Positions 10,539-58,072 of a stretch of DNA of 64,000 nt are shown piece after piece. Source of the DNA: Streptomyces cynarae (lineage in GTDB: Bacteria; Actinomycetota; Actinomycetes; Streptomycetales; Streptomycetaceae); NCBI RefSeq assembly GCF_025642135.1, contig NZ_CP106793.1, positions 3,972,001 through 4,036,000 on the forward strand, given 5' to 3'. Each line of letters opens with the position of its first letter. The stretch's first letter is position 1. The position numbers and the translations under genes were made by a program. Under the pieces are notes generated by a model. It was not told where the DNA came from. It worked only from the letters and a program-made list of their open reading frames with translations, and ran no database searches.

Positions 10539-10553
10539 CTGACGTATCGTCAG
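10539..10553. promoter_or_regulatory. CTGACG-N3-CGTCAG operator, site 1
   Basis: CTGACGTATCGTCAG has perfect six-base arms. It lies just upstream of the leftward LLM gene. This is the model site for the palindrome family found in front of the catabolic operons here; TetR-family repressors commonly bind sites of this size. Confidence 0.75.
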
Positions 10554-10600
10554 ATTGGCTTGCCGCCGACTGTCGCACCGCCCCGTTGGACCGTCAATAG

Positions 10601-10615
10601 CTGACGGTAGGTCAG
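10601..10615. promoter_or_regulatory. CTGACG-type operator, site 2
   Basis: CTGACGGTAGGTCAG has one arm mismatch. It lies 62 bases (centre to centre) from site 1, about six helical turns, in the gap between the SDR stop and the LLM start, so both sites probably serve the LLM promoter. Confidence 0.6.
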
Positions 10616-10631
10616 ATCATTGGGTGGACCC

Positions 10632-11408
10632 TCAGACGACCGAGACCCCGGCCAGCCACCCGCCGTCGATCACGAACGGCTGCCCGGTGATGTACGAGGA
10701 GTCGTCCGAGGTCAGGAAGAGCGCGAGCCGCGCCACCTCCTCGGCCCTGCCGACCCGGCCGAGCGGTACGAGCCGGCGGTACAGCCCGTCCAGGGCGCGG
10801 GACGTCTCCTGCGGGTCCGCCTCGGGGTCCAGTCGGGCCGGATTGGACATCGGGGTGTCGATGGCCCCCGGGCACACGGCGTTGACCCGTATCCCCCGCG
10901 GCGCCAGCTCGATCGCGGCGACCCTGGTGAGGCCGAGGACGGCGTGCTTGGTCGCCGCGTACGTGCCCACGGCCGCCATCCCGGTCATCGCGGTGTAGGA
11001 GGCGGTGTTGACGATGGTGCCGCCCCCGGACGCCGCGATCTCGGGAGCGACGGCCCGGATGCCGAGGAAGCAGCCGACCTGGTTGACCTGGACGACGCTC
11101 ATGAACTCGTCCAGGGGCGTGTCGAGAAGCGCGTTGAACCGCAGGATGCCCGCGTTGTTGACCAGCCCGTCGATATGCCCGTACGCCCCTTTCGCGACGG
11201 CCACGGCGGCGGCCCAGTCGGCCTCGCGGGCCACGTCGAGGTGCACGTACGACTGCCCCAGCTCCTTGGCGAGCGCCTCCCCCTGGTCGTCGAGCACGTC
11301 GGCGAGGACGACCCGGGCGCCCTCCGCCGCGAACAGCCGCGCCTCCTGCTCGCCCTGCCCGCGCGCCGCCCCGGTGACGATGACGACGCGCCCGTCCAGC
11401 TTGCCCAT
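10632..11408 (-). CDS. SDR-family NAD(P)-dependent dehydrogenase
   Basis: A 258-residue classical short-chain dehydrogenase. It has the cofactor motif TGAARGQGEQEA, NNAG (LVNNAGILRF), the catalytic YAATK with the upstream serine in NTASYTAM, and the PG motif NAVCPGAIDTPM. The family includes hydroxysteroid and 3-hydroxyacyl dehydrogenases. It follows the LLM gene at 11422 by 13 bases and is the last gene of the amidohydrolase-LLM-SDR operon started at 13613. It probably interconverts an alcohol and a ketone in that pathway. Confidence 0.88.
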   Translation of the reverse strand: MGKLDGRVVIVTGAARGQGEQEARLFAAEGARVVLADVLDDQGEALAKELGQSYVHLDVAREADWAAAVAVAKGAYGHIDGLVNNAGILRFNALLDTPLDEFMSVVQVNQVGCFLGIRAVAPEIAASGGGTIVNTASYTAMTGMAAVGTYAATKHAVLGLTRVAAIELAPRGIRVNAVCPGAIDTPMSNPARLDPEADPQETSRALDGLYRRLVPLGRVGRAEEVARLALFLTSDDSSYITGQPFVIDGGWLAGVSVV

Positions 11409-11421
11409 GGAGCCTTCCTCC

Positions 11422-12366
11422 TCAGTTCAGGCGGGGCGCGACCTCGACCCCGAACGCCGTGATCTGGTCGGTGAGTTCGGCGCGGCTCCGGCTGCGGAAC
11501 CGCACCTGGATCTGGTCCACGCCCATCGCGCGGTAGGCCCGCAGGGACTCGGCGATCGCCTCCGGGGCGCCGGCGACAGTGCGCCGGCCGACGTCCCAGT
11601 GGACCTGACCGATGTAGAGGGGCTCGGTGATGGCGCCCGCGGTGAAGGGGCCGTCCAGCCCGGCCTGTTCGCGCAGTCGCCCTATCCGGGCGATCTGCGC
11701 GGGCAGCCGGTGGCGCGGATCCCCCTGCGGCAGCCAGCCGTCCCCCTTGAGCGCGGCCCGGCGAACGGCGGCGGGCGAGGAGCCGCCCACCCAGAAGGGG
11801 ATGTGCGGCTGAGCGGGCCGGGGCCGCTGCCCGAGCCCTTCGAAGTCGTACGCCTTCCCGTGGTGGACCGGGAACTCCTCGGGCCCGAGGGCTACACGCA
11901 GCGCGTCGATCGCCTCGTCGAGCAGGGGCCCGCGCCGCCCGAAGTCCACCCCCAGCGCCTCGAACTCCTCGCGCACGTGCCCTGCTCCCACCCCGAGGAC
12001 GAGCCGCCCGCCGGAGAGGCGGTCGAGGGTCGCGTACTGCTTGGCGGTGACGAGCGGATGCCGCAGCCCGACGACCGCGACATGGCTGAGCAGCCGCACC
12101 CGCTCGGTGACGGCGGCCAGGTGCGCGAGCGTGGCCACCGGGTCGTACCAGACCGTGCCCATGGCGGAGGCGAGCCGGCGCGGGACGGCGACGTGGTCGC
12201 AGCAGGCGACGTAGTCGAACCCGGCGGCGTCCGCGGCCCGGGCGACCGCGACGAGGTCGCCCGGACCGGCCCCGGCTTCCCAGGACTCGGCGTAGAGCGT
12301 GGACTGCGACTGGACGGGAAGCTGCATCCCGTACCGGAGCGTCCTGTCCCGCAGGGGCCCGTTCAA
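11422..12366 (-). CDS. LLM-class F420-dependent-type oxidoreductase
   Basis: About 314 residues of the luciferase-like superfamily: LRYGMQLPVQSQS, ACCDHVAVPRRL, YDPVATLAHLAAVTERVRL, YATLDRLSGGRLVLGVGAGH and PFWVGGSS. These match the actinobacterial subgroup usually named LLM class F420-dependent oxidoreductase, though cofactor use is inferred. The start chosen is the TTG at 12366, which overlaps the upstream amidohydrolase stop as TTGA and has GGCAGG upstream; an ATG at 12327 is the alternative and would drop 13 residues. It sits between an amidohydrolase and an SDR in one operon. Confidence 0.85.
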   Translation of the reverse strand: MNGPLRDRTLRYGMQLPVQSQSTLYAESWEAGAGPGDLVAVARAADAAGFDYVACCDHVAVPRRLASAMGTVWYDPVATLAHLAAVTERVRLLSHVAVVGLRHPLVTAKQYATLDRLSGGRLVLGVGAGHVREEFEALGVDFGRRGPLLDEAIDALRVALGPEEFPVHHGKAYDFEGLGQRPRPAQPHIPFWVGGSSPAAVRRAALKGDGWLPQGDPRHRLPAQIARIGRLREQAGLDGPFTAGAITEPLYIGQVHWDVGRRTVAGAPEAIAESLRAYRAMGVDQIQVRFRSRSRAELTDQITAFGVEVAPRLN

Positions 12367-13613
12367 CGCCTGCCGCCCGGCCACAGACCGTCCTCCGTGA
12401 GCCCCAGCAGCTCGATGGCGTTGCGCCGGACGATCCGCTCGACGACGTCCGGCTCCAGATGCCCCATCTGCGCCTCGCCGACCTCGCGCGACTTGGGCCA
12501 GGTGGAGTCGGAGTGGGGATAGTCGGTTTCGTACAGGACGTTGCCCACCCCGACGGCGTCCAGGTTCCGCAGGCCGAAGGCGTCGTCGAAGAAGCAGCCG
12601 TGGACGTGCTCGGCGAACAGCTCGGACGGCGGGCGGTGGACCTTGTCGGCGACGCCGCCCCAGCCGCGGTTCTCCTCCCAGACGACGTCCGCGCGCTCGA
12701 GGATGTACGGGATCCAGCCGATCTGCCCCTCCGCGTACATCACCCTGAGGTTCGGGAACCGCTCGAACTTGCCGCTCATCAGCCAGTCGACCATCGAGAA
12801 GCAGCAGTTGGCGAAGGTGATCGTGGAGCCGACGGCGGGCGGGGCGTCGGCGGACGTGGACGGCATCCTGCTGCTCGACCCGATGTGCATCGCGATGACC
12901 GTCCCGGTCTCGTCGCAGGCGGCGAGGAAGGGGTCCCAGTCGTCGGTGTGGACGGAGGGCAGGCCGAGGCGCGGTGGGATCTCGGAGAACGCGACGGCGC
13001 GGACGCCGCGTTCGGCGTTGCGGCGCACTTCGGCGGCGGCGAGTCCGGCGTCCCAGAGGGGGATGAGGGTGAGGGGTATGAGGCGTCCGTGCGCCTCGGG
13101 CCCGCACCACTCCTCCACCATCCAGTCGTTGTACGCCCTGATGGACAGCAGTCCGAGCTCGCGGTCCTTGGCCTCGGTGAAGGTCTGTCCGCAAAAGCGC
13201 GGGAAGGTGGGGAAGCAGAGGGCGGACTGGACGTGGTTGACGTCCATGTCGGCGAGGCGCTGCGGGACGTCGTACGAGCCCGGGCGCATCTGCTCGTAGG
13301 TGATCACCTCGAGCCTGATCTCGTCCCTGCTGTAGCCGACGGCGGTGTCGAGGCGGGTGAGGGGCCGGTGCAGGTCCTCGTACACCCACCAGTCGCCGAG
13401 CGGGCCCTCGTCGCCGGGGGAGCCCATGGCCGGGGCGAACCTGCCGCCCAGGAACGTCATTTCCTTCAGGGGCGCGCGGACGATACGCGGACCGATGCCC
13501 CGGTACTTCGCCGGGAGGCGGTCCTGCCAGACGTCCGGTGGCTCCACGGTGTGGTCGTCGACGGAGATGATCTTCGGGAAGGCGGCGCCGGTGCCGGTCG
13601 CTGAGGTCTCCAT
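12363..13613 (-). CDS. amidohydrolase family protein (ACMSD/decarboxylase-like), paralogue A
   Basis: A 416-residue amidohydrolase-2 TIM-barrel protein. Visible are SVDDHTVEPPDVW at the N-terminus, CFPTFPRFCGQTF, ETGTVIAMHIGSSS, GWIPYILERAD and the C-terminal ETDYPHSDSTWP. The family covers metal-dependent decarboxylases and hydrolases acting on carboxylated rings, and members recur in actinobacterial CoA-catabolic clusters. It is clearly paralogous to the protein at 56806-58002, sharing these motifs in order. It opens a three-gene operon, with a perfect operator 22 bases upstream. The exact reaction is unknown. Confidence 0.85.
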   Translation of the reverse strand: METSATGTGAAFPKIISVDDHTVEPPDVWQDRLPAKYRGIGPRIVRAPLKEMTFLGGRFAPAMGSPGDEGPLGDWWVYEDLHRPLTRLDTAVGYSRDEIRLEVITYEQMRPGSYDVPQRLADMDVNHVQSALCFPTFPRFCGQTFTEAKDRELGLLSIRAYNDWMVEEWCGPEAHGRLIPLTLIPLWDAGLAAAEVRRNAERGVRAVAFSEIPPRLGLPSVHTDDWDPFLAACDETGTVIAMHIGSSSRMPSTSADAPPAVGSTITFANCCFSMVDWLMSGKFERFPNLRVMYAEGQIGWIPYILERADVVWEENRGWGGVADKVHRPPSELFAEHVHGCFFDDAFGLRNLDAVGVGNVLYETDYPHSDSTWPKSREVGEAQMGHLEPDVVERIVRRNAIELLGLTEDGLWPGGRR

Positions 13614-13634: not shown

Positions 13635-13649
13635 CTGACGATCCGTCAG
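13635..13649. promoter_or_regulatory. CTGACG-N3-CGTCAG operator, site 3
   Basis: CTGACGATCCGTCAG has perfect arms and lies 22 bases upstream of the amidohydrolase start at 13613. It shares the intergenic region with the afsR promoter, whose start is nearly 200 bases away. Confidence 0.75.
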
Positions 13650-18371: not shown

Positions 18372-19994
18372 CTACGTCGTCCCCAGGCCCGGTCGCGTGC
18401 GGCGGCGCAACTGCCCCTTCACCACCTTCCCGCTCGCGTTCCTCAGAAGGGACTCGACGAACTCCACCTCCCTCGGGACCTTGTAGTTCGCCATCTCGCG
18501 GCGGGACCACGCGATCAGGTCGTCGGACGTCAGCACCGCCCCCGGCCTGCGCACCACGTACGCCTTCCCCACCTCCCCCAGCCGCGCGTCCGGCACGCCG
18601 ATCACCGCCGCCTCCGCCACATCCGGGTGCAGGGCCAGCAGTTGCTCTATCTCCGCCGGGTACGCGTTGAAGCCGCCCACGACGAACATGTCCTTGATGC
18701 GGTCCGTGATGCGGAGGTTGCCCGCCGGGTCCAGTACCCCGACGTCTCCCGTGCGGAGCCAGCCGTCCGGGGTGAGGGTCTCCACCGTGGCCGCCTCGTC
18801 CTCGAAGTAGCCCCGCATGACGTTGAATCCCCGGACCAGGACCTCACCGGGAAGCCCCGCGCCGAGCGGTTCTCCCTGCGCGTCCACCACCCGTACCTCC
18901 ACTCCCGGGATCGGGCGGCCCGACGTCGTCGCGATCACCTCCGGCGGATCGCTCCTGCGGCACATCGTCACGAAACCGCTCGCTTCCGACAGGCCGTACG
19001 CCGTCAGGACCGTCGCGACGCCGAGTTCGTCCCGCAGCCGTTCCACCAGGCGCAGCGGCACCACCGCCGCCCCCGTCACGACCAGGCGCAGGGCGGAGAG
19101 GTCGTAGGAGGCCCGCGACGGGTGGTCCAGCAGTGCCTGGTGCAGGGTCGGCGGGCCCGGCAGGACGGTCACCCGCTCCGCCGCCGTGTTCGCCAGTGCC
19201 GTGTCCACGGTGAACACCGGCTGCGGGATCATCGTCGCGCCCCGCATCAGGCAGGCCAGCACCCCGGCCTTGTAACCGAACGTGTGGAAGAAGGGGTTGA
19301 CGATCAGGTAGCGGTCGCCCTGTCGCAGACCCGTCAGGTCCGCCCAGGTCTCGTAGGCCCTCAGCGTCTGCGCGTGCGTGATCACCGCGCCCTTGGGGCG
19401 GCCTGTCGTGCCCGAGGTGAAGACGATGTCCGAGGGGCGGTCGCCCGTCACGACCGACGACCTGCGCCGCACCTCCGGCTCGCCCACCCCCTCCCCGCTC
19501 GCGAGGAAGTCCTTCCAGGTGCGGAAGTCCGCCGGGGCGTCGTCCGCCAGGACCACCACCTGCTCCAGGTGCGGCAGGCCCGGCAACGGACCGTCCCCGG
19601 GCCCCTCCCCCGCCGCCCTCCGCAGCGACGCCACGTACGACGTCCCGAGGAACGCACCCGTCACGAACAGCAGTTTCGCCCGGCTCCGGTGCAGGACGTA
19701 GGCCGCCTCCGAGCCCTTGAAGCGGGTGTTGAGCGGCACCAGGACCGCGCCCGCCGACACAGCGCCCAGAGAGGACACGATCCAGTCGAGCGTGTTCGGC
19801 GCCCAGATGCCGACGCGGTCGCCGACGCCGACGCCGTTCGCGATGCAGGCCGCCGCCGCGCGTTCGACGCGGGCAGCCAGTTCGGCGTACGAGATCCGTG
19901 TACGGCCCTCGACGACCGCCTCCGTGTCGTCGTAGCGACGGGCCGCGCTCCGCACCAGCTCCGGAATGCCGCCCCACTCCAGGTCACCGCGCAC
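18372..19994 (-). CDS. acyl-CoA synthetase, FadD type
   Basis: A 540-residue ANL-superfamily ligase that adenylates a carboxylic acid and transfers it to CoA. Motifs are intact: the ATP loop VFTSGTTGRPKGAV, TAYGLSEAS, GWLRTGDVGVLD, and the C-terminal catalytic lysine context LLRNASGKVVKGQLRR. It resembles FadD3-type ligases for ring-bearing propionates, but substrate cannot be assigned. The GTG at 19994 has GGGGAGG five bases upstream and is preferred over the ATG at 20024, which has no ribosome-binding site. It is divergent from the Ltp-DUF35-crotonase operon, with two operators in between. Confidence 0.88.
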   Translation of the reverse strand: MRGDLEWGGIPELVRSAARRYDDTEAVVEGRTRISYAELAARVERAAAACIANGVGVGDRVGIWAPNTLDWIVSSLGAVSAGAVLVPLNTRFKGSEAAYVLHRSRAKLLFVTGAFLGTSYVASLRRAAGEGPGDGPLPGLPHLEQVVVLADDAPADFRTWKDFLASGEGVGEPEVRRRSSVVTGDRPSDIVFTSGTTGRPKGAVITHAQTLRAYETWADLTGLRQGDRYLIVNPFFHTFGYKAGVLACLMRGATMIPQPVFTVDTALANTAAERVTVLPGPPTLHQALLDHPSRASYDLSALRLVVTGAAVVPLRLVERLRDELGVATVLTAYGLSEASGFVTMCRRSDPPEVIATTSGRPIPGVEVRVVDAQGEPLGAGLPGEVLVRGFNVMRGYFEDEAATVETLTPDGWLRTGDVGVLDPAGNLRITDRIKDMFVVGGFNAYPAEIEQLLALHPDVAEAAVIGVPDARLGEVGKAYVVRRPGAVLTSDDLIAWSRREMANYKVPREVEFVESLLRNASGKVVKGQLRRRTRPGLGTT

Positions 19995-20032
19995 GGCGTC
20001 CTCCCCACGGTACGCACAGCCCATCGCCGTAG

Positions 20033-20047
20033 CTGACTAACCGTCAG
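20033..20047. promoter_or_regulatory. CTGACG-type operator, site 4
   Basis: CTGACTAACCGTCAG has one arm mismatch and lies 38 bases upstream of the preferred FadD start, in the divergent gap. Confidence 0.6.
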
Positions 20048-20059
20048 ATTAGCTGTAAC

Positions 20060-20074
20060 CTGACGGGCTGTCAG
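20060..20074. promoter_or_regulatory. CTGACG-type operator, site 5
   Basis: CTGACGGGCTGTCAG has one arm mismatch and lies 26 bases upstream of the Ltp start. With site 4 it is placed to control both divergent operons. Confidence 0.65.
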
Positions 20075-20100: not shown

Positions 20101-21249
20101 ATGGCAGGGTTCAAGGACGCGACCGCCGTCGTCGGCATCGGACAGACCGACTTCGCCAAGCGGCTCCCGGAGTCCGAGAAGGCCCTGGCCTGCCGTGCCG
20201 TCCTCGCCGCCCTCGACGACGCCGGGATCGCGCCCGGCGAGGTCGACGCGCTCGCCTCGTACACCATGGAGGAGACCGACGAGGTGGAGGTCGCCAAGGC
20301 CCTCGGTCTCGGGGACCTCACCTTCTTCAGCAAGGTCGGGTACGGGGGCGGCGGCTCCTGCGCGACCGTCGCCCATCTCGCCGCCGCCGTCGCCACCGGG
20401 CAGGCCACCGTCGGCGTCGCCTGGCGTTCCCGCAAGCGCGGCAGCGGGCCCCGGCCATGGAAGAACACGGCGGTGCAGCTTCCCACTCCCGCCCAGTGGA
20501 CCCGGCCCTTCGGGCTCCTCAGGCCCGTCGACGAGATCGGGATGCTCGCACGCCGGTACATGCACCAGTACGGGGCGAGTAGGGATCACCTCTTCAACGT
20601 CGCCCTCGCCTGCCGGAACAGGGCCAATCAGAACCCCGCCGCGATCATGTACGAGCGGCCCCTGACCAGAGACATGTACATGAGCTCGCGGTGGATCAGC
20701 GAGCCGCTCTGCCTCTTCGACAACTGCCTGGAGACGGACGGCGCGTTGGCCTGCGTGGTCGTCTCCCGCGAGCGCGCCCGTGACTGCCGGCAGCGGCCCG
20801 TCTACGTCCACGCCGCCGCCCAGGGGCTGCCCGCCCAGCACCACGGCATGGTCAACTACTGGAACGACGACCCGCTCACCGGCCCCGCCTGGACCGCCGC
20901 CCGCCACCTGTGGAAGCACGCCGACCTCGCCCCCGACGACGTCGACGTCGCCCAGATCTACGACGCGTTCACACCCCTGATCCTCCTCTCCCTGGAGGGC
21001 TACGGCTTCTGCGGCCGGGGAGAGGGCGGGGCGTTCACCGAGGGCGGGGCGCTGGAGACCGGTGGACGGCTGCCCGTCAACACGGGGGGCGGCGGGCTCT
21101 CCGAGGCGTACGTCCACGGGTTCAACCTGATCAATGAGGGCGTGAAGCAGCTGCGCGGGACCAGCACCGCCCAGGTTCCGGGCGCCTCCACCTGTCTCGT
21201 CACCGCCGGCGAGGGCGTCCCGACCTCCGCCCTTCTGCTGAGGAACTGA
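20101..21249 (+). CDS. thiolase-superfamily lipid-transfer protein (Ltp), copy 1
   Basis: A 382-residue thiolase-fold protein of the Ltp/SCP-x group. It has AVVGIGQTDFAKR at the N-terminus, QIYDAFTPLILLSLEGYGFCGRGEGG, and the C-terminal VNTGGGGLSEAYVHG. Characterised relatives such as Ltp2 are retro-aldolases that release propionyl-CoA from beta-hydroxyacyl-CoA thioesters and need a DUF35 partner. The next gene is exactly such a DUF35 protein, 12 bases on. GCGGAGG precedes the ATG. An aldolase role is therefore likely but inferred; the substrate is unknown. A second Ltp gene lies at 28714. Confidence 0.85.
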   Translation: MAGFKDATAVVGIGQTDFAKRLPESEKALACRAVLAALDDAGIAPGEVDALASYTMEETDEVEVAKALGLGDLTFFSKVGYGGGGSCATVAHLAAAVATGQATVGVAWRSRKRGSGPRPWKNTAVQLPTPAQWTRPFGLLRPVDEIGMLARRYMHQYGASRDHLFNVALACRNRANQNPAAIMYERPLTRDMYMSSRWISEPLCLFDNCLETDGALACVVVSRERARDCRQRPVYVHAAAQGLPAQHHGMVNYWNDDPLTGPAWTAARHLWKHADLAPDDVDVAQIYDAFTPLILLSLEGYGFCGRGEGGAFTEGGALETGGRLPVNTGGGGLSEAYVHGFNLINEGVKQLRGTSTAQVPGASTCLVTAGEGVPTSALLLRN

Positions 21250-26101: not shown

Positions 26102-26116
26102 CTGACGGCATGACAG
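26102..26116. promoter_or_regulatory. degenerate CTGACG-type site over the TetR start
   Basis: CTGACGGCATGACAG matches the operator consensus at ten of twelve arm positions and includes the ATG of the TetR gene. It may be an autoregulatory site or chance. Confidence 0.3.
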
Positions 26117-26757
26117 GACAAGTGCGTACCGTCGACGGCCGCGTGGCCGGTCGACGCGGGCAGGCGACGCGGCAGAAGCTGCTCGACTGCCTCAGCGAGA
26201 TGCTCAGCTCCTCGCCTTACCGCGACGTCAAAGTCATTGATGTCGCCCGGAAGGCGGGGACGTCACCGGCGACCTTCTACCAGTACTTCCCGGACGTCGA
26301 GGGCGCCGTCCTCGAGATCGCGGACCAAATGGCCGCGGAGGGTGCCGGGTTGACCCAGCTGCTGGAAGGCCGCTCCTGGGCCGGGAAGGCCGGCTGGCAG
26401 ACCGCGCAGGAACTCGTGGAGGGTTTCCTGGAGTTCTGGCGCAAACACGACGCCATCCTGCGCGTGGTGGACCTCGGCGCGGCCGAGGGCGACAAGCGCT
26501 TCTACAAGATCCGCATGAAGATCCTGAACTCGGTGAACAACTCACTCGCGGACTCGATCTCCGAGCTCCAGTCCAAGGGCAGGGTCGACAAGGACGTGAA
26601 CCCGGCGGCCGTGGCGGGCGCGCTCGTGGCGATGCTGGCGTCCGTGTCCTCCCACCAGAAGGGCTTCACGTCCTGGGGCGTCAAGCAGGCCGAACTGAAG
26701 CCGAACCTCGCGTTGTTGGTGTACCTGGGCGTCACGGGCAGGAAGCCGACGAAGTAG
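26110..26757 (+). CDS. TetR-family transcriptional regulator
   Basis: A 215-residue TetR-type repressor. The helix-turn-helix lies at about residues 20-63: GQATRQKLLDCLSEMLS, then VIDVARKAGTSPATFYQYFP, the usual recognition-helix pattern. The ligand domain (SWAGKAGWQTAQELVEGFLEFWRKHD onward) is large and aromatic. It is the only TetR gene in the window and sits amid operons carrying the CTGACG palindrome, so it is a candidate for that regulon. It could equally be the conserved TetR neighbour of the afs locus with another role. It is divergent from the kbpA-like gene. Confidence 0.9.
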   Translation: MTGQVRTVDGRVAGRRGQATRQKLLDCLSEMLSSSPYRDVKVIDVARKAGTSPATFYQYFPDVEGAVLEIADQMAAEGAGLTQLLEGRSWAGKAGWQTAQELVEGFLEFWRKHDAILRVVDLGAAEGDKRFYKIRMKILNSVNNSLADSISELQSKGRVDKDVNPAAVAGALVAMLASVSSHQKGFTSWGVKQAELKPNLALLVYLGVTGRKPTK

Positions 26758-26884: not shown

Positions 26885-27358
26885 TCACCGCGGCAGGACC
26901 CGGAACAGCCGGATCTCCCGCTCCACCCGCTCCTGGTACGTGGCGTACGGCGGCCAGAACGCCAGCACCGCCTTCCAGGCGGCGTCCCGCTCCCGGCCCC
27001 GCAGCAGATGGGCCGTGACCGGGATGTCCTCGCCCCTCCAGTTGATCTCCGCGTCGGGGTGGGCGAGGAGGTTGTGGGTCCAGGCCGGATGGCCGGGCCG
27101 CCCGAAGTTGGAGCCGATCAGGAGCCAGCTGCCGCCCTCCTCCGGCATGCACGCGAGCGGCGTACGGCGTGCGAGGCCGCTTCTCGCGCCGGTGGACGTG
27201 AGGATCACGCCTGGCAGCATCTGCGCGCTGAGCAGCACCTTTCCACCGGTCAACCGGTGCACCGCGCGGTCCAGGGCGGGCACGACGTGCGGCGCGGCCC
27301 TGGCGAAGGCCCGCGTGGAGGACACCTTCTGCACGATCCGTACACCGAGGGCCGTCAC
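26885..27358 (-). CDS. nitroreductase-family deazaflavin-dependent oxidoreductase, copy 2
   Basis: A 157-residue Ddn-family protein: LTSTGARSGLARRTPLACM, LLIGSNFGRPGHPAWTHNLLAHP and the ending ATYQERVEREIRLFRVLPR are all standard. F420H2-dependent reduction of an enone or quinone is the family activity. The GTG at 27358 overlaps the upstream acyl-CoA dehydrogenase stop as GTGA, so the two are coupled and controlled from the operator region at 28635. Together with fbiC and the LLM genes it suggests F420 chemistry in the pathway. Substrate unknown. Confidence 0.87.
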   Translation of the reverse strand: MTALGVRIVQKVSSTRAFARAAPHVVPALDRAVHRLTGGKVLLSAQMLPGVILTSTGARSGLARRTPLACMPEEGGSWLLIGSNFGRPGHPAWTHNLLAHPDAEINWRGEDIPVTAHLLRGRERDAAWKAVLAFWPPYATYQERVEREIRLFRVLPR

Positions 27359-28634: not shown

Positions 28635-28649
28635 CTGATGGGCCGTCAT
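28635..28649. promoter_or_regulatory. CTGACG-type operator, site 6 (weak)
   Basis: CTGATGGGCCGTCAT differs at two arm positions. It lies 20 bases upstream of the acyl-CoA dehydrogenase start. Confidence 0.45.
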
Positions 28650-28694: not shown

Positions 28695-28709
28695 CTGATG
28701 TACCGTCAG
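28695..28709. promoter_or_regulatory. CTGACG-type operator, site 7
   Basis: CTGATGTACCGTCAG has one mismatch and ends four bases before the Ltp ATG at 28714. With so little room for a ribosome-binding site, the Ltp transcript may be leaderless and the operator would cover its -10 region. Confidence 0.65.
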
Positions 28710-32158: not shown

Positions 32159-32557
32159 TCACCGGTTTTCCCGCGGCCGGAACACGGGCACGCCCTCCCT
32201 GAAGGCCACCTCCAGTGCCATGCCGACCCGCAGCCCGGACGGTCCGCACCCCACCACCTCGGTCATCATCCGCGGCCCCTCCGTGAGGTCGACCACGGCG
32301 GCGACGTACGGTGTGCGCCCGTCGAAGGGCGGCAGGTCGTTCCGGTGGACGACGGACCAGGTGTAGAGGGTCGCCCGGCCGCTCGCCGGCTCCCAGGCCA
32401 CGTCGTCGCTCCAGCAGAACGGGCAGAACTCGCGCGGGTAGTGGTGGGCGCGCCCGCAGGCCGAGCAGCGGCGGACCAGCAGCCGTCCCCGCGCCGCCGC
32501 GTCCCAGTAGGGGCGCGTGAAGGCGTCCACGTCGGGGACGTCGAAGCGCCCGCTCAC
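32159..32557 (-). CDS. Zn-ribbon/OB-fold DUF35 protein, copy 2
   Basis: A 132-residue DUF35 protein with a complete zinc ribbon (CSAC ... CPFC, about residues 28-47) and the OB-fold segment TLYTWSVVHRNDLPPF. By analogy with ChsH2-DUF35 it should help an Ltp aldolase or thiolase bind its acyl-CoA, and Ltp copy 2 at 28714 is the nearest candidate. The GTG at 32557 overlaps the DoxX stop as GTGA. The two-gene operon has a palindromic operator upstream at 33031. Confidence 0.83.
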   Translation of the reverse strand: MSGRFDVPDVDAFTRPYWDAAARGRLLVRRCSACGRAHHYPREFCPFCWSDDVAWEPASGRATLYTWSVVHRNDLPPFDGRTPYVAAVVDLTEGPRMMTEVVGCGPSGLRVGMALEVAFREGVPVFRPRENR

Positions 32558-37936: not shown

Positions 37937-37951
37937 CTGACGTACCGTCAG
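37937..37951. promoter_or_regulatory. CTGACG-N3-CGTCAG operator, site 10
   Basis: CTGACGTACCGTCAG has perfect arms and ends five bases before the first possible ATG of the flavin reductase gene, again suggesting a leaderless or downstream start. Confidence 0.75.
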
Positions 37952-49875: not shown

Positions 49876-51030
49876 TCAGCCCTTGGTTCCCCTGGGTTCC
49901 TTCGGCAGGCCGAGCACGCGCTCGGCGATGATCGTGCGCTGGATCTCGTCGGAGCCGCCGTAAATGGTGTCGGCCCGGCTGAACAGGAACAGGTGCTGGA
50001 GCGGGTCCAGCGCGTACGGTTCCGTGGGCGACCAGTCGGCGGGGCCTGCCGCGCCTGCCGCGCCCCTGACCTGCATCGCGAGTTCGCCCAGGCGCTGGTG
50101 CCAGTGCGCCCACAGCAGTTTGGCCACGCTGGGCGCGGCCGGGTCCGTCGTGTCGCCGAGGGTGCGCAGGGCGTTCCAGCGCATCGTCCGCAGTTCGGCC
50201 CACTGGGTGACGAGGCGGTCGCGCAGGACGGGGTCGTCCGCCGCGCCGGTGGCCAGGGCCGTGCGGACGACCTCGGCGAGTTCGTTCGCGAAGCCGATCT
50301 GCTGGGCGAGGGTGGAGACGCCGCGTTCGAAGCCGAGCAGGCTCATCGCCACGCGCCAGCCGTTGCCCTCGCCGCCGACGACGTGTTCGGCGCGGGCCGC
50401 CGCCCCGTCGAAGAACACCTCGTTGAACTCGCTGGTCCCGGTGAGCTGGCGGATGGGGCGGACCTCGATACGGCCGGGCTGGTCCATCGGGACGAGGAGG
50501 AAGGTCAGGCCGTGGTGGCGGTGGGAGGTGGGGTCTGTACGGGCGAGGACGAAGCACCAGTCCGCCTCGTGGGCGAGGGAGGTCCAGGTCTTCTGGCCGG
50601 TGACGCGGTACGAGGTGGGGGTGTCGCGCACGGCGGCGGTGCGCAGGCCCGCCAGGTCGGAGCCGGCGCCGGGTTCGCTGTAGCCCTGGCACCAGAGTTC
50701 CTCGCCCCGGGCTATGGGCGGCAGGAAGCGGGACTTCTGGGCCTGGGTGCCGTGGGTGAGGAGGGTGGGGGCGAGGAGGTTCTCCCCTATGTGGCCGGAG
50801 CGGGGTGGTGCCTGGGAGCGGGCGTACTCCTCCGCCCAGACGACCTGTTGGGTGAGAGGGGCGCGGCGGTTGCCGTAGCCGTCCTCGGGCCAGGACAGGC
50901 CGATCCAGCCGGCTCGGCCGAGGGTGCGTTCCCAGGATCGGCGGGTGTGGGGGGTGCCGAGGTGGGCTTCCAGCCAGGTGCGGACCTGCGCACGGAACAC
51001 CTCGTCTTGCGGGTCTGGCTCGAAGTTCAT
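49876..51030 (-). CDS. acyl-CoA dehydrogenase, steroid-type large subunit
   Basis: A 384-residue acyl-CoA dehydrogenase with GEELWCQGYSEPGAGSDLAG, VTGQKTWTSLAHEADWC and the C-terminal IYGGSDEIQRTIIAERVLGLP. At the position of the usual catalytic glutamate (YEGTSEIQ) there is glycine, as in subunits of alpha2-beta2 steroid-type dehydrogenases that carry the base elsewhere or on a partner. It is followed by the alcohol dehydrogenase gene. A 420-base repeat-rich gap separates it from the upstream SDR gene; shared transcription is possible. Confidence 0.88.
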   Translation of the reverse strand: MNFEPDPQDEVFRAQVRTWLEAHLGTPHTRRSWERTLGRAGWIGLSWPEDGYGNRRAPLTQQVVWAEEYARSQAPPRSGHIGENLLAPTLLTHGTQAQKSRFLPPIARGEELWCQGYSEPGAGSDLAGLRTAAVRDTPTSYRVTGQKTWTSLAHEADWCFVLARTDPTSHRHHGLTFLLVPMDQPGRIEVRPIRQLTGTSEFNEVFFDGAAARAEHVVGGEGNGWRVAMSLLGFERGVSTLAQQIGFANELAEVVRTALATGAADDPVLRDRLVTQWAELRTMRWNALRTLGDTTDPAAPSVAKLLWAHWHQRLGELAMQVRGAAGAAGPADWSPTEPYALDPLQHLFLFSRADTIYGGSDEIQRTIIAERVLGLPKEPRGTKG

Positions 51031-51450: not shown

Positions 51451-52350
51451 TCAGCGGCCGCGGCGTGCCGCCCTCTCCATCGCCTCCACCTGCTCCAGCA
51501 GCGGCATCGGGTCCGTCCCCACCGTTCCCGGCAGGAAGTCCGCGATCCTCTCCGGGGTCCACGCGCCCTCCGCGTACGCCGCTCTCAGCTCCCTCGGCTG
51601 TGCCCAGACCGCCAGTTTCGGGCCCGCGATCGTGTACACCTGGCCCGTGACGCCCTCCTCCTTCGCGCGGTCGGACAGGAGGTAGACCACCAGCGCCGCC
51701 ACGTCCTCGGGGTCGCCGATCTCCTTCAGTTCCATGGGGACGTTCGCCGACATGCGGGTCCGGGCCACGGGGGCCACCGCGTTCGCCGTCACCCCGTACT
51801 TGTGCAGACCCAGGGCCGCGCTGCGGACAAGGGAGATGATTCCGCCTTTTGCCGCGCTGTAGTTGGCCTGCGACACGGAGCCCTGGTGGTTGCCGCTCGT
51901 GAAACCGATCAGCGTGCCCGAGCGCTGCTCCCGCATCACCGCCGACGCCGCGCGGAACACCGTGAACGTGCCCTTGAGGTGTGTGGCGAGCACCGGGTCC
52001 CACTCGTGCTCGGTCATGTTGAACAGCATCCGTTCGCGCAGGATGCCCGCCACGCACACCACCCCGTCCAGGCGGCCGTACGCCGCGAGCGCCCGGTCCA
52101 CCACCCGCTGCCCGCCCGCCATGGTCGAGATGTCGTCGGCGACCGCGACGGCCTCCCCGCCCGCCGCCTCGATCTCCTTGACCACGGCGTCGGCGATCTC
52201 GCTCGTGGGCGAGGCGCCGTCCACCAGGACCCCGTAGTCGTTGACGACGACCCGCGCCCCCTCCGCCGCCGCGGCCAGCGCCACCGCCCGCCCGATGCCT
52301 CGGCCCGCGCCCGTCACCGCGACGACCTTGCCCGCCAGGAAGTTCGCCAT
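51451..52350 (-). CDS. SDR-family oxidoreductase (hydroxyacyl-CoA dehydrogenase-like)
   Basis: A 299-residue short-chain dehydrogenase. The cofactor motif TGAGRGIGRAVALAAAAEG, then VVNDYGV, VCVAGIL (in place of NNAG) and the catalytic SQANYSAAKGG are visible. The VNDYGV...A-x-x-V-V-x-E-I-x-A-A-G-G-E-A pattern matches the dehydrogenase part of peroxisomal multifunctional enzyme 2, which oxidises 3-hydroxyacyl-CoA. It ends in a tandem repeat array and is divergent from the cyclase gene with two weak operators between. Confidence 0.87.
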   Translation of the reverse strand: MANFLAGKVVAVTGAGRGIGRAVALAAAAEGARVVVNDYGVLVDGASPTSEIADAVVKEIEAAGGEAVAVADDISTMAGGQRVVDRALAAYGRLDGVVCVAGILRERMLFNMTEHEWDPVLATHLKGTFTVFRAASAVMREQRSGTLIGFTSGNHQGSVSQANYSAAKGGIISLVRSAALGLHKYGVTANAVAPVARTRMSANVPMELKEIGDPEDVAALVVYLLSDRAKEEGVTGQVYTIAGPKLAVWAQPRELRAAYAEGAWTPERIADFLPGTVGTDPMPLLEQVEAMERAARRGR

Positions 52351-52382: not shown

Positions 52383-52397
52383 CTGACCGTCCGTTAG
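52383..52397. promoter_or_regulatory. CTGACG-type operator, site 11 (weak)
   Basis: CTGACCGTCCGTTAG has two arm mismatches; it lies 32 bases upstream of the SDR start. Confidence 0.45.
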
Positions 52398-52415: not shown

Positions 52416-52430
52416 TTTACGGGTCGTCAG
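52416..52430. promoter_or_regulatory. CTGACG-type operator, site 12 (half-conserved)
   Basis: TTTACGGGTCGTCAG keeps one perfect half; it lies 30 bases upstream of the cyclase start and 33 bases from site 11. Confidence 0.35.
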
Positions 52431-52460: not shown

Positions 52461-53387
52461 ATGCCACTGCCCGGCGAGTTCCACGAGATCGCGAAGCGCG
52501 TGAACAACTGGGGGCGCTGGGGCCCGGAGGACGAGATCGGGACGCTGAACCTCGTCACCGACCAGGTGGTGCGCGAGGCCGCGGCCTGTGTGCGCAGTGG
52601 GCGGCGCATACCGCTCGCCCTGCCGCTCCGACAGGACGGAGTGCAGACCGGCGTCATCCCGGGGCGGGTCAATCCGTTGCACGTGATGGTGCAGATCAAC
52701 CAGGAGATCTTCGGCCCGGGCACCGTGGCGTGCAGCGACGACGCCGTGACCATGGGCCTCCAGGCGGCCACGCACTGGGACGCGCTCCCGCACGTATCGC
52801 ACTCCGGGAAGCTCTACAACGGCCGTCCGGCCGGCACGGTGACAGCGCACGGCGGCGCCGCGTTCAGCGGGATCGACAAGCCGCGGCACATCGTCTCCCG
52901 GGGGGTGCTCCTCGACATCCCCCGGGCGCTCGGCCGGGAGCGGCTCGAGGGTTCGTACGCGGTCACGCCGCAGGATCTGGACGCGGCCGAGGAGTTCGCC
53001 GGTACGCGGGTTCGGGCGGGTGACATCGTCCTCGTACGGACCGGGCAGATCCGCACCTATCTCTCGGGCGGCAAAGAGGCCTACGGGTATCCCTCGCCGG
53101 GGCTGTCGGTGCGGACCCCGGAGTGGTTCCACGCGCGCGATGTGGCGGCCGTCGCCAACGACACGCTCACCTTCGAGGTCTTTCCCCCCGAGATCGAGGA
53201 TCTGTGGCTGCCCGTGCACGCCCTCCACCTCGTGGAGATGGGGATGCCACAGGGGCAGAACTGGAACCTCGAGGAGTTGTCCACAGCCTGTGGAGAAGAG
53301 GGGCGCTACGCCTTCCTGCTGTCCGCGACACCCGAGCCGTTCGTCGGCGGCACCGGAAGCCCCGTGGCACCCGTGGCCGTCCTGTGA
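52461..53387 (+). CDS. cyclase family protein (kynurenine formamidase-like)
   Basis: A 308-residue metal-dependent hydrolase of the cyclase/KynB fold. The metal motif TH-x-D-x-x-x-H appears as ATHWDALPHVSHSG, and PRHIVSRGVLLDIP, GDIVLVRTGQ and PVHALHLVEMGMPQGQNW follow. Members hydrolyse amides, lactones or cyclic ketone derivatives. The gene is divergent from the SDR gene and followed by a strong terminator, so it forms a single-gene transcript. Ring opening in the catabolic route is a reasonable inference, but the substrate is unknown. Confidence 0.85.
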   Translation: MPLPGEFHEIAKRVNNWGRWGPEDEIGTLNLVTDQVVREAAACVRSGRRIPLALPLRQDGVQTGVIPGRVNPLHVMVQINQEIFGPGTVACSDDAVTMGLQAATHWDALPHVSHSGKLYNGRPAGTVTAHGGAAFSGIDKPRHIVSRGVLLDIPRALGRERLEGSYAVTPQDLDAAEEFAGTRVRAGDIVLVRTGQIRTYLSGGKEAYGYPSPGLSVRTPEWFHARDVAAVANDTLTFEVFPPEIEDLWLPVHALHLVEMGMPQGQNWNLEELSTACGEEGRYAFLLSATPEPFVGGTGSPVAPVAVL

Positions 53388-54780: not shown

Positions 54781-54783
54781 TTA
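54764..54783. terminator. bidirectional stem-loop with T-run
   Basis: AAGCCC-TGCTCAG-GGGCTTTT forms a short stem followed by T residues, unusual at this GC content. On the minus strand it overlaps the TAA stop of the acyl-CoA dehydrogenase at 54781. Confidence 0.55.
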
Positions 54784-55665
54784 TCTCACCTCTGAGAGCA
54801 GTTCCCCAGCGAGCTTTTCCTCACTCTCCGCACTCGAACCCATACGCTGGGCCCGTACCCACGCTCGCTTCAGGTACAGGTGCACCTCCGCCTCCCAGGT
54901 GAAGCCCATACCGCCGTGCACCTGGAGGCAGTCGCGGGCGCAGCGGACGGCCGCCTCGTCGGCGAGCAGACGGGCCGCGGCGATGTCGAGGGGGTCGGCG
55001 GTGATCGCGGCGGCGTACACCGCGACGCGGGCCGTCTCCACCCGTACCAGGCTCTCTGCGCACAGGTGTTTGACCGCCTGGAAGGCCCCGATCGGTTGAC
55101 CGAACTGCTCCCGGACCCGCGCGTGCTCCGCCGCCAGCTCACAGGTCCGCGCGGCGCCGCCGAGCTGTTCGGCGGCGGTGAGGAGGACCGCGACGGGGTC
55201 CGGCAGGCGGTCTTCGGCGGCCCGGACGACCCGGTGCAGGGGCGTCATCGGGTCCACCGACGTCAGGGGCAGGGCACCGGTCGCGTCACCCCGGACGACG
55301 TCCGCCTCCCCCAGCCATTCCACGAGCCCGCCGTACACGGCCGTGACCACCGTCTGTCCGCTCGCCGCGCCCGGCACCTGGCCCGCCGCGAGGTGGGTGG
55401 CCACCAGCGGGCCGGGCAGCAGCGCCCGGCCGGCTTCCTCGAAGGCCAGGACCGCCTCCGGCAGGCCCAGTCCGACCCCGCCGTCCGCCTCCGGCAGCCG
55501 CAGCGCGAAGAAGCCCGCCTCGCCCAGTTCCCGCCACAGCCCACGGTCGAGCGCACCGGGCCGGTCCACGGCGGCCCGCAGCGCGCCCCGGCCGAAGCGG
55601 CGCTGGAGCAGACCGCGCACGCCTGCCCGCAACGCCCGCTGGTCGTCGGTCGGCTGGAAGCGCAC
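54781..55665 (-). CDS. acyl-CoA dehydrogenase, steroid-type small subunit
   Basis: A 294-residue protein, much shorter than the usual 380. It keeps the start RFQPTDDQRALRAGVRGLL, the FAD-contact helix REQFGQPIGAFQAVKHLCAE and LQVHGGMGFTWEAEVHLYLK, but lacks much of the middle domain and the YEGT end. Short subunits like this pair with a long one in alpha2-beta2 steroid-type dehydrogenases; the long partner is likely the gene seven bases upstream. It ends at a rare TAA inside a hairpin. The GTG start follows a weak ribosome-binding site. Confidence 0.87.
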   Translation of the reverse strand: MRFQPTDDQRALRAGVRGLLQRRFGRGALRAAVDRPGALDRGLWRELGEAGFFALRLPEADGGVGLGLPEAVLAFEEAGRALLPGPLVATHLAAGQVPGAASGQTVVTAVYGGLVEWLGEADVVRGDATGALPLTSVDPMTPLHRVVRAAEDRLPDPVAVLLTAAEQLGGAARTCELAAEHARVREQFGQPIGAFQAVKHLCAESLVRVETARVAVYAAAITADPLDIAAARLLADEAAVRCARDCLQVHGGMGFTWEAEVHLYLKRAWVRAQRMGSSAESEEKLAGELLSEVR

Positions 55666-55672: not shown

Positions 55673-56806
55673 TCACCGTCCCTTCGGCAGGCCGAGGATG
55701 CGTTCGGCCACGATGTTCCGCTGGATCTGCGAGGTGCCGGCCGCGATCGTGTACGAGAGGGACGACAGCCGGTCCAGGACCCATGGACGGCCGAGGTCCA
55801 GGGACTCGGGGCCCAGGACCTCGGCGGCTGCGTCGTACAGCTCCTGACGCGCGTGCGAATACCGCAGCTTGAAGACCGAGCCGCCCACGCCCGGGGCCCC
55901 GCCCTTCCGTTCCGCCTCGCTCACGTTCCACTGCGTGAGCCGCCAAAGGGCACGGAACTCGGCGTTCAGTTGCCCCAGCCTCCGCCGCAGCGAGGGGTCG
56001 TCCCAGCGGCCGTTCGCCAGCGCCTGGCGGGCGAGTTCGCCGAGCACGCGACGGCAGGCCACCACCTCCCCCACGAACGCGGTGCCGCGTTCGAAGGACA
56101 GCGTCACCATGGTCACGCGCCAGCCGTCGTTCTCCGCGCCGATCCGGTTGGCGACCGGCACCCGCACCTCGTCGAGGAACACCTCAGCGAACTCCTCGGA
56201 CCCGGCGAGCGTCCGCAGCGACCGTACGGTGACGCCCGGTGCGTCCATGGGCATCGCCAGCCAGGTGATGCCCCGGTGCTTCGGCGCGCCGGGGTCGGTG
56301 CGCACCAGCAGTTCGCACCAGTCGGCGACCTCCGCGTGGGAGGTCCAGATCTTGGATCCGCTCACCACGTAGTCGTCGCCGTCCCGCCACGCGCGCGTGC
56401 GCAGCGCGGCGAGGTCGGACCCGGCGTCCGGCTCGCTGAACCCCTGGCACCACACCTCGTCCCCGCGCAGGATCGGCGGCAGCCAGCGCTCCCGCTGCCC
56501 GGGCGTGCCCTCGGCGGCGATGGTGGGCCCGGCGTGCAGCAGCCCGACGAAGTTGGCCCCCACATAGGGCGCGCCCGCCTTCTCGGCCTCCTCCAGGAAG
56601 ATCAGCCGCACGGTCGGGGAGGCGTCCCAGTGGACGTCGGCGTACCCGGCGTCGTACAGCATGCGCTGCCACCCGAGGTCGTAGGCGCGCCGCCCGGGCC
56701 AGTCGTCCGGGGACGGTTTCGGCGGCAGGGTGGGGAGCACCTCGGCGAGCCACTCCCGCAGCCGGGCCCGGAACTCCTCCTCCTCCGGGGTGCAGGACAG
56801 GTCCAT
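55673..56806 (-). CDS. acyl-CoA dehydrogenase, steroid-type large subunit
   Basis: A 377-residue dehydrogenase with GDEVWCQGFSEPDAGSDLAA, VVSGSKIWTSHAEVADWC and the C-terminal IAAGTSQIQRNIVAERILGLP. Alanine replaces the glutamate of the YEGTSQIQ motif, again as in heteromeric steroid-type subunits. The ATG at 56806 shares its A with the TGA stop of the upstream amidohydrolase (TGATG), so the two are coupled. It probably forms a complex with the 294-residue protein coded just downstream. Confidence 0.9.
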   Translation of the reverse strand: MDLSCTPEEEEFRARLREWLAEVLPTLPPKPSPDDWPGRRAYDLGWQRMLYDAGYADVHWDASPTVRLIFLEEAEKAGAPYVGANFVGLLHAGPTIAAEGTPGQRERWLPPILRGDEVWCQGFSEPDAGSDLAALRTRAWRDGDDYVVSGSKIWTSHAEVADWCELLVRTDPGAPKHRGITWLAMPMDAPGVTVRSLRTLAGSEEFAEVFLDEVRVPVANRIGAENDGWRVTMVTLSFERGTAFVGEVVACRRVLGELARQALANGRWDDPSLRRRLGQLNAEFRALWRLTQWNVSEAERKGGAPGVGGSVFKLRYSHARQELYDAAAEVLGPESLDLGRPWVLDRLSSLSYTIAAGTSQIQRNIVAERILGLPKGR

Positions 56807-58002
56807 CAGCGCTCGAGGTCCAGGTCCAGCATGCGGATCGCGTTGCCCCGCATCAGCTTGTGCACCGTCTCGTCGTCCAGGCCCTTCACATGGTCGAGGG
56901 CGACCTCCTTGGTGTGCGGGAAGGTCGAGTCGACGTGCGGGTAGTCGGTCTCGAAGGTGGCGTTGTCCCGGCCCACCACGTCGAGCGAGGCGACGCCGTG
57001 CTTGTCGCGGAAGAAGCAGCAGAAGATCTGCCGGTAGTAGTACGCCGACGGCGGCTCGGGGATCAGGTCGCGGACCCCGCCCCAGGCGCGGTGCTCCTCC
57101 CAGACGTCGTCGGCGCGTTCCAGCGCGTACGGGATCCAGCCCATCTGCCCCTCGGAGTAGGCGAGCTTGAGGCGCGGGAACTTCACCAGGACCCCGCTGA
57201 AGAGGTAGTCCATCATCGAGGCCATCGCGTTGTTGAAGCTGAGCGAGGCCTGCACGGCGGGAGGCGCGTCGGGCGAGGCGGCGGGCATCTGCGAGCTGCT
57301 GCCGATGTGCATGTTGACCACCGTCCCGGTCTCCTGGCAGACGGCGAAGAACGGGTCCCAGTAGCCGGAGTGGATGGAGGGCAGGCCGAGGTGGGTGGGG
57401 ATCTCGGAGAAGGTGACGGCCCGCACCCCCCGCCCGGCGTTGCGCCGGATCTCGGCGACCGCGAGGTCGATGTCCCACAGGGGGATCAGGCAGAGCGGGA
57501 TGAGCCGGCCGCCGCTGTCGCCGCACCACTCCTCGACCATCCAGTCGTTGTAGGCGCGTACGCAGGCCAGGGCGACCTCCTTGTCGTGCGCCTCGGCGAA
57601 GGTCTGACCGCAGAAGCGCGGGAAGGTGGGGAAGCAGAGACTGGCCTCGACGTGGTTGAGGTCCATGTCCTCCAGGCGGGCCCTGGGGTCCCAGCACCCC
57701 CGCCGCATCTGCTCCCTGGTGATCCCCTCCAGGGTCATCTCGTCCCGGTCGAAGCCGACGGCGGCGATGTTCCGCTTGTAGGGGAACTTCAGGTCCTCGT
57801 AGATCCACCAGTCCGTCGGCGGCCCCTCCGGGTCCATGGTGATCTGGTATTTCCCGCCGACGTAGGCCAGTTCGCCGATCCCGGCGGTCAGCGGCTGCGG
57901 GCCCCGGTCCCGGTACTTGGCGGGCAGCCAGGTCTCGAAGAGGTGCGCGGGCTCGATCACGTGGTCGTCGACGCTGATGATGCGGGGCAGTTCACTCGCC
58001 AT
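56806..58002 (-). CDS. amidohydrolase family protein (ACMSD/decarboxylase-like), paralogue B
   Basis: A 398-residue amidohydrolase-2 protein, paralogous to the one at 12363-13613. It shares SVDDHVIEPAHLFETWLPAKY, CFPTFPRFCGQTFAEAHDKE, RAYNDWMVEEWCG, NMHIGSSSQMP, GWIPYALERADDVWEEHRAW and ETDYPHVDSTFP. The metal-binding DDH at the N-terminus replaces the more common HxH. It opens an operon with two acyl-CoA dehydrogenase genes and has a palindromic operator 28 bases upstream. Reaction unknown. Confidence 0.86.
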   Translation of the reverse strand: MASELPRIISVDDHVIEPAHLFETWLPAKYRDRGPQPLTAGIGELAYVGGKYQITMDPEGPPTDWWIYEDLKFPYKRNIAAVGFDRDEMTLEGITREQMRRGCWDPRARLEDMDLNHVEASLCFPTFPRFCGQTFAEAHDKEVALACVRAYNDWMVEEWCGDSGGRLIPLCLIPLWDIDLAVAEIRRNAGRGVRAVTFSEIPTHLGLPSIHSGYWDPFFAVCQETGTVVNMHIGSSSQMPAASPDAPPAVQASLSFNNAMASMMDYLFSGVLVKFPRLKLAYSEGQMGWIPYALERADDVWEEHRAWGGVRDLIPEPPSAYYYRQIFCCFFRDKHGVASLDVVGRDNATFETDYPHVDSTFPHTKEVALDHVKGLDDETVHKLMRGNAIRMLDLDLER

Positions 58003-58030
58003 GGTTCCCCTCCGCCGGACCGGCTCTCAT

Positions 58031-58045
58031 CTGATGGCTCGTCAG
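58031..58045. promoter_or_regulatory. CTGACG-type operator, site 13
   Basis: CTGATGGCTCGTCAG has one arm mismatch and faces the amidohydrolase operon. Confidence 0.65.
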
Positions 58046-58057
58046 ATAGCATGTCAC

Positions 58058-58072
58058 CTGACGGATCGTCAG
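58058..58072. promoter_or_regulatory. CTGACG-N3-CGTCAG operator, site 14
   Basis: CTGACGGATCGTCAG has perfect arms and lies 19 bases upstream of the CoA-ligase start. Sites 13 and 14 are 27 bases apart, the same spacing as sites 4 and 5. Confidence 0.75.

Follow-up and report, generated by a model that had tools for sequence, protein, structure and literature searches.

A conserved palindrome beside afsK in Streptomyces cynarae is a candidate operator of a putatively TetR-controlled catabolic regulon

We analyzed a 64-kb stretch of the Streptomyces cynarae genome (positions 3,972,001 to 4,036,000 of contig NZ_CP106793.1; hereafter the window, with coordinates counted from its first nucleotide) in which a palindrome, CTGACG-N3-CGTCAG, recurs upstream of catabolic genes. 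We found that the palindrome is enriched in the window and is retained before orthologous genes in related Streptomyces genomes. We propose that it serves a single catabolic regulon as operator: a TetR-family protein encoded within the cluster (26110-26757) would bind it and repress the genes, and a pathway intermediate would release the protein. Judging from sequence comparison, we give this proposal a probability of about 0.72.

The original prediction listed 11 sites with 0 or 1 mismatch and three weaker copies, at 28635, 52383, and 52416. We found all 11 in place with no more than one mismatch, against 0.47 expected and a maximum of 3 in shuffled sequence (n = 100), and we confirmed the weaker copies, which have 2 mismatches apiece. 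We also scanned the window for all 4,096 half-sites at gaps of 0 to 10 (45,056 combinations). CTGACG-N3 ranked first (11 observed versus 0.34 expected). The places after it went to the same palindrome in shifted register, TCTGAC-N5 and ATCTGA-N7, and the next unrelated palindrome scored about one third as high. The shifted registers suggest that the fuller operator is a 19-bp consensus, ATCTGACG-N3-CGTCAGAT. Across 412 oriented, nonidentical sites, the outer A is present in 82% and the outer T in 62%, values that are favored by the consensus filter used to collect the set. A -10-like TANNNT beginning 4 bases before the arm was found at 94 of the 412 sites versus about 60 predicted from single-column frequencies, a modest excess. 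The sites are as follows.

10539-10553: operator, exact, 10 bp from the start of the luciferase-like monooxygenase gene 9392-10528 (minus strand)
10601-10615: operator, 1 mismatch, in the promoter common with 10539
13635-13649: operator, exact, between an amidohydrolase gene (21 bp) and the afsR-like gene (193 bp)
20033-20047: operator, 1 mismatch, in the divergent FadD3-type ligase/lipid-transfer thiolase promoter; kept across the genus
20060-20074: second operator, 1 mismatch, in the same ligase/lipid-transfer thiolase intergenic region
26102-26116: imperfect operator with 2 mismatches; it overlaps the start codon of the TetR gene and is next to a TAAGCT -10-like box
28635-28649: weaker operator with 2 mismatches; an acyl-coenzyme A (acyl-CoA) dehydrogenase gene starts 20 bp away
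28695-28709: operator, 1 mismatch, in the divergent acyl-CoA dehydrogenase/thiolase promoter
33031-33045: operator, 1 mismatch, upstream of the ChsH2-like OB-fold gene (minus strand), with a flavin-containing monooxygenase (FMO) gene on the opposite side
34753-34767: operator, 1 mismatch, upstream of the ATP-grasp acyl-CoA ligase gene (in-frame ATG at 34801)
37937-37951: operator, exact, upstream of the flavin reductase gene (in-frame ATG at 37957 or 37969)
52383-52397: weaker operator, 2 mismatches, in the divergent short-chain dehydrogenase/cyclase promoter
52416-52430: weaker operator, 2 mismatches, in the same promoter as 52383
58031-58045: operator, 1 mismatch, in the divergent amidohydrolase/acyl-CoA ligase promoter
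58058-58072: second operator, exact, in the same promoter as 58031

Gene starts were taken from a home-made gene finder plus in-frame start codons. By these starts, all 14 sites of the original prediction, the weaker ones included, lie near catabolic or oxidoreductase genes, as it had claimed, at 4 to 72 bp from the closest predicted start. Its further statement that no site precedes the afs genes was not strictly true, because the afsR-like gene starts 193 bp downstream of 13635. When 2 mismatches were allowed, we found 21 matches in the window versus 8.3 expected. The additional matches are thus largely chance, and by position only 28635, 52383, 52416, and 26102 among them merit attention.

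Those 8.3 expected matches, together with one off-cluster site that falls inside signal peptide codons (described below), are what could be said for chance recurrence of a GC-rich palindrome. We give that explanation almost no credence: we rejected it because it is contradicted by the enrichment over shuffled sequence, by the half-site rank among 45,056 combinations, and by the conservation. On this evidence, we conclude that the palindrome is a real, conserved control site.

Across the S. cynarae genome, we counted 133 sites with at most 1 mismatch versus 25 for a reversed-pattern control and 14 exact sites versus 2. Of these, 11 of the former and 4 of the latter fall in the window, which makes up 0.7% of the genome. 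Sites are sparser outside it (11 in 64 kb versus 122 in the remaining 9.3 Mb), and the original prediction passed this test of frequency. With the 19-bp consensus, there were 78 genome sites versus 6 reversed at up to 3 mismatches. At up to 2 mismatches, there were 22 sites: 10 in the window, 1 at 3.2 kb to its left, preceding a short-chain dehydrogenase gene, and 11 elsewhere. Three of these 11, at 4.43, 6.21, and 8.20 Mb, are clearly before catabolic-type genes. The 4.43-Mb site precedes an operon encoding a full ChsH2-type hydratase (6ok1_B, E 1.1e-41; 4wnb, E 6.2e-32), a ChsH1-like MaoC protein, and an Ltp2 homologue (6ok1_A, E 1.1e-169), with an alpha/beta hydrolase gene on the opposite side. 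The site at 8.20 Mb is before a nitronate-monooxygenase-like gene, and the one at 6.21 Mb is 173 bp from a luciferase-like gene; both genes have homologues (50 to 53% identity) that also lie behind exact sites in genomes of another family, f16. These data suggest that the regulon extends beyond 48 kb and includes, for example, the chsH2-chsH1-ltp2-like operon at 4.43 Mb. We set aside a GMC oxidoreductase as a member because its near-perfect site, another of the 11 (2531908; position 7911 of L328), falls within the twin-arginine signal codons of a protein starting MTTNLTRRQ, probably a coding coincidence.

To compare orthologous genes, we used two sets: 21 genomes of the genus Streptomyces (20 relatives plus G013) and 80 named loci, mostly from Streptomycetaceae, with 2 genomes common to both sets. 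In the 21 genomes, a site was counted if it had at most 1 mismatch and lay at -300 to +45 of the gene start. The original prediction had proposed this comparison, and the sites proved to be kept. They were present at 108 of 108 starts in the named loci, for nine catabolic gene types chosen after the table was seen, and at 78 of 78 starts of catabolic types in the genus genomes. In the named loci, these were the ligase (22/22), lipid-transfer thiolase (22/22), acyl-CoA dehydrogenase (20/20), thiolase (21/21), ATP-grasp ligase (12/12), and ChsH2-like (5/5) genes and the short-chain dehydrogenase, cyclase, and amidohydrolase genes (2/2 each). The genus genomes gave 16/16 for the ligase, 16/16 for the lipid-transfer thiolase, 17/17 for the acyl-CoA dehydrogenase, 15/15 for the thiolase, 8/8 for the ChsH2-like gene, 3/3 for the ATP-grasp ligase, and 1/1 each for flavin reductase, short-chain dehydrogenase, and cyclase. 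Other cluster genes in the named loci had fewer sites or none (flavin reductase, 4/9; ECHb, 0/12; ECHa, 0/7; Zn-alcohol dehydrogenase, 0/2), and in the genus genomes ECHa had 0/8 and ECHb, Zn-alcohol dehydrogenase, and two in-block acyl-CoA dehydrogenases had 0/1 each.

Neighboring genes were mostly free of sites. The named loci gave 1/74 for afsK, 0/38 for glyoxalase, 0/17 for MFS, 0/12 for formyltransferase, and 0/8 for F420-type genes; the genus genomes gave 0/18 for afsK, 0/20 for glyoxalase, 0/10 for F420-type, 0/2 for afsR, and 0/2 for MFS genes. The exceptions in the named loci were FMO (6/36) and afsR (3/15). We rejected FMO as a core target, as only those 6 of 36 starts and 4 of 9 in the genus genomes had a site. 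We observed that afsR has an upstream site with at most 1 mismatch in L217, L231, and L241, and no homologue of the window amidohydrolase was found in the available stretch.

Sites also follow the catabolic genes from locus to locus. The 27 named loci with at least 2 catabolic genes contain 113 sites in 524 kb, versus 17 sites in 956 kb for the 53 loci with 0 or 1. We then looked at 60 kb around the TetR gene in each of six genus genomes selected for having 0 to 3 exact sites. All six retain afsR, afsK, and the TetR gene, and five each retain glyoxalase and FMO; no catabolic reference gene was found in these 60-kb stretches, and the 5 sites with at most 1 mismatch in 360 kb are at about chance level. 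In 18 aligned stretches, the site and the spacer to a second site were better conserved than the flanks, with the caveat that a stretch had to contain the first site to be retrieved; these were found via a CTGACT-type half-site and comprise 17 ligase/lipid-transfer intergenic regions and one region (L203) upstream of acyl-CoA dehydrogenase.

The candidate regulator was absent from the original prediction; the 2-mismatch site at 26102 overlaps its start.

26110-26757, plus strand: TetR-family regulator of 215 aa with PF19352 (TetR_C_38); candidate for the repressor, likened to SCO4421 from its synteny with afsK

The protein matches PF00440 (TetR_N) at 26.5 bits (cutoff, 24) and PF19352 at E 8.9e-73, and it has the all-helical ligand domain of the TetR fold. 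It was the single match to PF19352 found in the genome. Its gene adjoins the afsK-like kinase gene, as it does in the 20 genus relatives whose locus was examined. The TetR-type operator suspected in the original prediction is favored, with a single-copy candidate TetR encoded within the cluster.

We found that the palindrome and this TetR family occur together. Orthologues (59 to 93% identity) were present in 36 of 36 genus genomes and 14 of 14 genomes of family f3, and the other 10, smaller, relatives gave weak matches only. Exact-site counts track the orthologue, at 2 to 32 in the genus, 5 to 20 in f3, and 0 to 2 in the other 10. Among genomes outside the genus, at least 6 exact sites were present in 15 of 21 with a PF19352 match (E ≤ 1e-9) versus 1 of 247 without one; with family f15 removed, the former figure is 10 of 16. 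The motif GTS.ATFYQYF, taken as the recognition helix, has one variable position among 16 proteins from six families. In f16, we took 16 exact-site loci from 28 sites in two genomes, and 13 of the 16 had a homologue of a Streptomyces regulon gene (28 to 67% identity) starting within 350 bp, a count made without a random-locus control.

The start of the TetR gene itself carries a related sequence. TA..CTGAC lies upstream of the ATG in 80 of 80 named loci, and a site with at most 1 mismatch is present at the start in 6 of 7 loci of families f14 and f16. In these families (L103, L104, L105, L107, and L119), the operator is apparently inside the first tetR codons, and therefore regulator binding and coding would overlap there.

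The sites might instead work through an activator or as RNA or DNA hairpins, since they are near starts and a 6-bp stem is possible. We consider this very improbable. At the TetR start, the site covers the ATG or the space that separates it from the -10-like box, which is poor for an activator; many sites are common to divergent genes, symmetric, and separated by a fixed N3 gap; and the candidate regulator is a TetR.

A second alternative is that the operator and the regulon are real and that the regulator is encoded elsewhere in the genome, where at least 120 PF00440 matches were listed (150 of 358 candidates scored). The in-cluster TetR would then control, for example, the nearby FMO gene in the manner of EthR-EthA, a regulator/monooxygenase pair. 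The fold is alike, and EthR is the nearest fold among the matches listed, at about 21% identity; an FMO gene also neighbors the TetR gene in many loci. Where the catabolic cluster is missing (L166 to L183 and many of L206 to L285), TetR and often FMO stay near afsK, recalling EthR-EthA. Separately, among other TetR genes near off-cluster sites (L050 to L053), one at 2.66 Mb (L050) has a 1-mismatch site, TTGACGTACCGTCAG, between its start and the end of a transporter-like gene, judged by eye, that runs in the same direction; this TetR is a possible rival regulator. We nonetheless regard a regulator elsewhere as rather unlikely. TetR 26110-26757 accounts for the only PF00440 match listed in the window (26197-26295), and FMO starts had a site in reach in just 6 of 36 cases. 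The TetR-start sites in other families, the class-wide co-occurrence, and the near-invariant recognition helix also argue for the in-cluster protein. We conclude that TetR 26110-26757 is the best candidate regulator of the palindrome.

Several observations weigh against repression of this regulon by the in-cluster TetR. PF19352 is present without exact sites in three genomes (G072, G081, and G327), and one genome that is 68% complete (G200) has 10 sites and no TetR match. In Streptomyces, the site over the TetR start is imperfect: it had at most 1 mismatch in 0 of 81 named and 0 of 21 genus cases, and 30 of 30 loci from the genus showed 2 mismatches. An own-start site with at most 1 mismatch was found in 0 of 4 f3 loci and 1 of 4 f15 loci. 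The flanks upstream of this site are also fairly conserved, and the site itself may be conserved in part for the sake of the promoter and the coding start. TetR is kept in 53 of 80 named loci with 0 or 1 catabolic gene in the stretch (some stretches are short); therefore, it probably has a second role besides the regulon. Among the 11 off-cluster sites, 5 are without a predicted gene start in reach and 2 are before genes unlike the rest (a peptidase-like gene and an unassigned 130-aa gene). Related genomes are, moreover, nonindependent samples. Finally, the palindrome in f15 is scattered, with half of the sites inside genes, which the repressor model does not account for.

In the five f15 genomes (G063, G085, G103, G119, and G135), we found 109 to 218 exact sites each, versus 0 or 1 for the reversed control. 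We examined loci L286 to L305 and L316 to L325 from this family. In 400 kb of G063, the excess was specific to gap 3 (11 exact and 40 one-mismatch sites, versus 0 to 1 and 1 to 5 at other gaps). Of these 51 sites, 27 are inside predicted genes, versus 83% of random positions, and 25 of the 27 are in the frame CTG ACG NNN CGT CAG. A further 8 are between convergent genes (random, 2.9%), 14 are between codirectional genes (random, 9%), and 2 are between divergent genes. With 27 of 51 sites inside genes and only 2 divergent, we rejected f15 as extra proof of a promoter operator. PF19352 matches are weaker in f15, and in three aligned f15 TetR proteins the recognition helix is kept and the C-terminal part has diverged. 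One TetR family and its palindrome could be a local catabolic switch in Streptomyces, f3 (probably the family of Catenulispora), and f16 that in f15 spread to a genome-wide binding system derived from the repressor, an idea that we hold to be quite doubtful. Other short palindromes, such as CTTACT with gap 4, recur about 13 times in the 400 kb of G063 (L286 to L305) and probably belong to a small repeated element.

The genes of the putative regulon in the window are as follows.

9392-10528, minus strand: luciferase-like monooxygenase
10632-11408, minus strand: short-chain dehydrogenase
11422-12327, minus strand: luciferase-like monooxygenase
12363-13613, minus strand: amidohydrolase, DitZ/PtmU3-related
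18372-20024, minus strand: FadD3-family acyl-CoA ligase
20101-21249, plus strand: lipid-transfer thiolase/aldolase, Ltp2-like
27355-28614, minus strand: acyl-CoA dehydrogenase
28714-29889, plus strand: thiolase-like protein
32159-32977, minus strand: ChsH2-like zinc ribbon/OB-fold protein
34801-37026, plus strand: ATP-grasp (ADP-forming type) acyl-CoA ligase
37058-37891, plus strand: enoyl-CoA hydratase
37969-38574, plus strand: flavin reductase
49876-51030, minus strand: acyl-CoA dehydrogenase, from the block that follows the 52383/52416 sites
51451-52350, minus strand: short-chain dehydrogenase
52461-53387, plus strand: cyclase-family protein (PF04199)
54781-55620, minus strand: acyl-CoA dehydrogenase subunit, Tcur3481-like
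55673-56806, minus strand: acyl-CoA dehydrogenase subunit, Tcur3483/4x28-like
56806-58002, minus strand: amidohydrolase, DitZ-related
58092-59636, plus strand: AMP-binding acyl-CoA ligase

The lipid-transfer thiolase matches 6ok1_A, which we take to be T. curvata Ltp2, at E 3.8e-99, and the window OB-fold protein matches 6ok1_B, the ChsH2(DUF35) partner, at E 1.7e-19. The acyl-CoA dehydrogenase pair matches Tcur3481 and 4x28/Tcur3483, and both window amidohydrolases match DitZ and PtmU3. For DitZ, nothing relevant was among the matches listed from the open-licence literature. By these matches, the enzymes appear most like those for side-chain shortening and ring opening of steroids or diterpenoids. 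The relatives of Ltp2/ChsH2, the paired acyl-CoA dehydrogenases, and DitZ suggest catabolism of a polycyclic isoprenoid, e.g., a steroid or diterpenoid. We infer that all blocks over 48 kb form one pathway.

Such genes recall known TetR-type switches. Genes for Ltp, ChsH, and acyl-CoA dehydrogenases are among those controlled by KstR, and FadD3 belongs to the KstR2 regulon. In mycobacteria and their relatives, KstR represses itself and a lipid-degradation regulon through a short palindrome, TnnAACnnGTTnnA, that lies partly over the -10 region; two genomes contain 16 and 31 more copies of it (PMC1995591). KstR2 represses a steroid-ring block through the box AnCAAGnnCTTGnT (PMC3068626) and is released by HIP-CoA (PMC6678751). 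The system described here would be like both in being TetR-type control of steroid-type CoA catabolism, and homologues of the sterol side-chain genes of the KstR regulon (Ltp2, ChsH1/H2, and paired acyl-CoA dehydrogenases) are present in the window or in the 4.43-Mb operon with a site. It differs in its box, which is ATCTGACGNNNCGTCAGAT here, and in that the cluster lies beside afsK/afsR. We found no exact match to TnnAACnnGTTnnA or AnCAAGnnCTTGnT in the 64-kb window and rejected identity with either box, in agreement with the original prediction. No earlier description of this operator was found among the matches listed from the open-licence literature, and a search there on both half-site strings returned no paper.

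In our proposal, a dimer of TetR 26110-26757 would bind the 19-bp consensus. Given that the sites in the window are 4 to 72 bp from gene starts and that some of them border on a -10-like box, the bound protein would keep the promoters of the nine regions closed. Release of the repressor would come from an intermediate of the pathway, most likely a CoA thioester, the kind of ligand reported for KstR2.

The TetR gene has possible counterparts in other species. S. avermitilis SAV3818, reportedly a stimulator of antibiotic production, may be the same gene. On synteny, we take TetR 26110-26757 to be the orthologue of S. coelicolor SCO4421, which is also encoded close to afsK (SCO4423). SCO4421 is reported to be whiA dependent and spore expressed, and its deletion had no detected phenotype; the accessible part of that study describes no operator or regulon for it (PMC3878966).

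Our analysis links a TetR found in 36 of 36 genus relatives to an operator, to a list of target genes, and to a role open to experiment; the one study that we found on its S. coelicolor counterpart assigns that protein no clear function. Since the repressor ligand should be a pathway intermediate, the question of the substrate becomes approachable. The findings point to a Streptomyces regulon for catabolism of the steroid or terpenoid type in which neither the KstR nor the KstR2 box is used, and they place this regulon beside the afsK-afsR control genes of antibiotic production.

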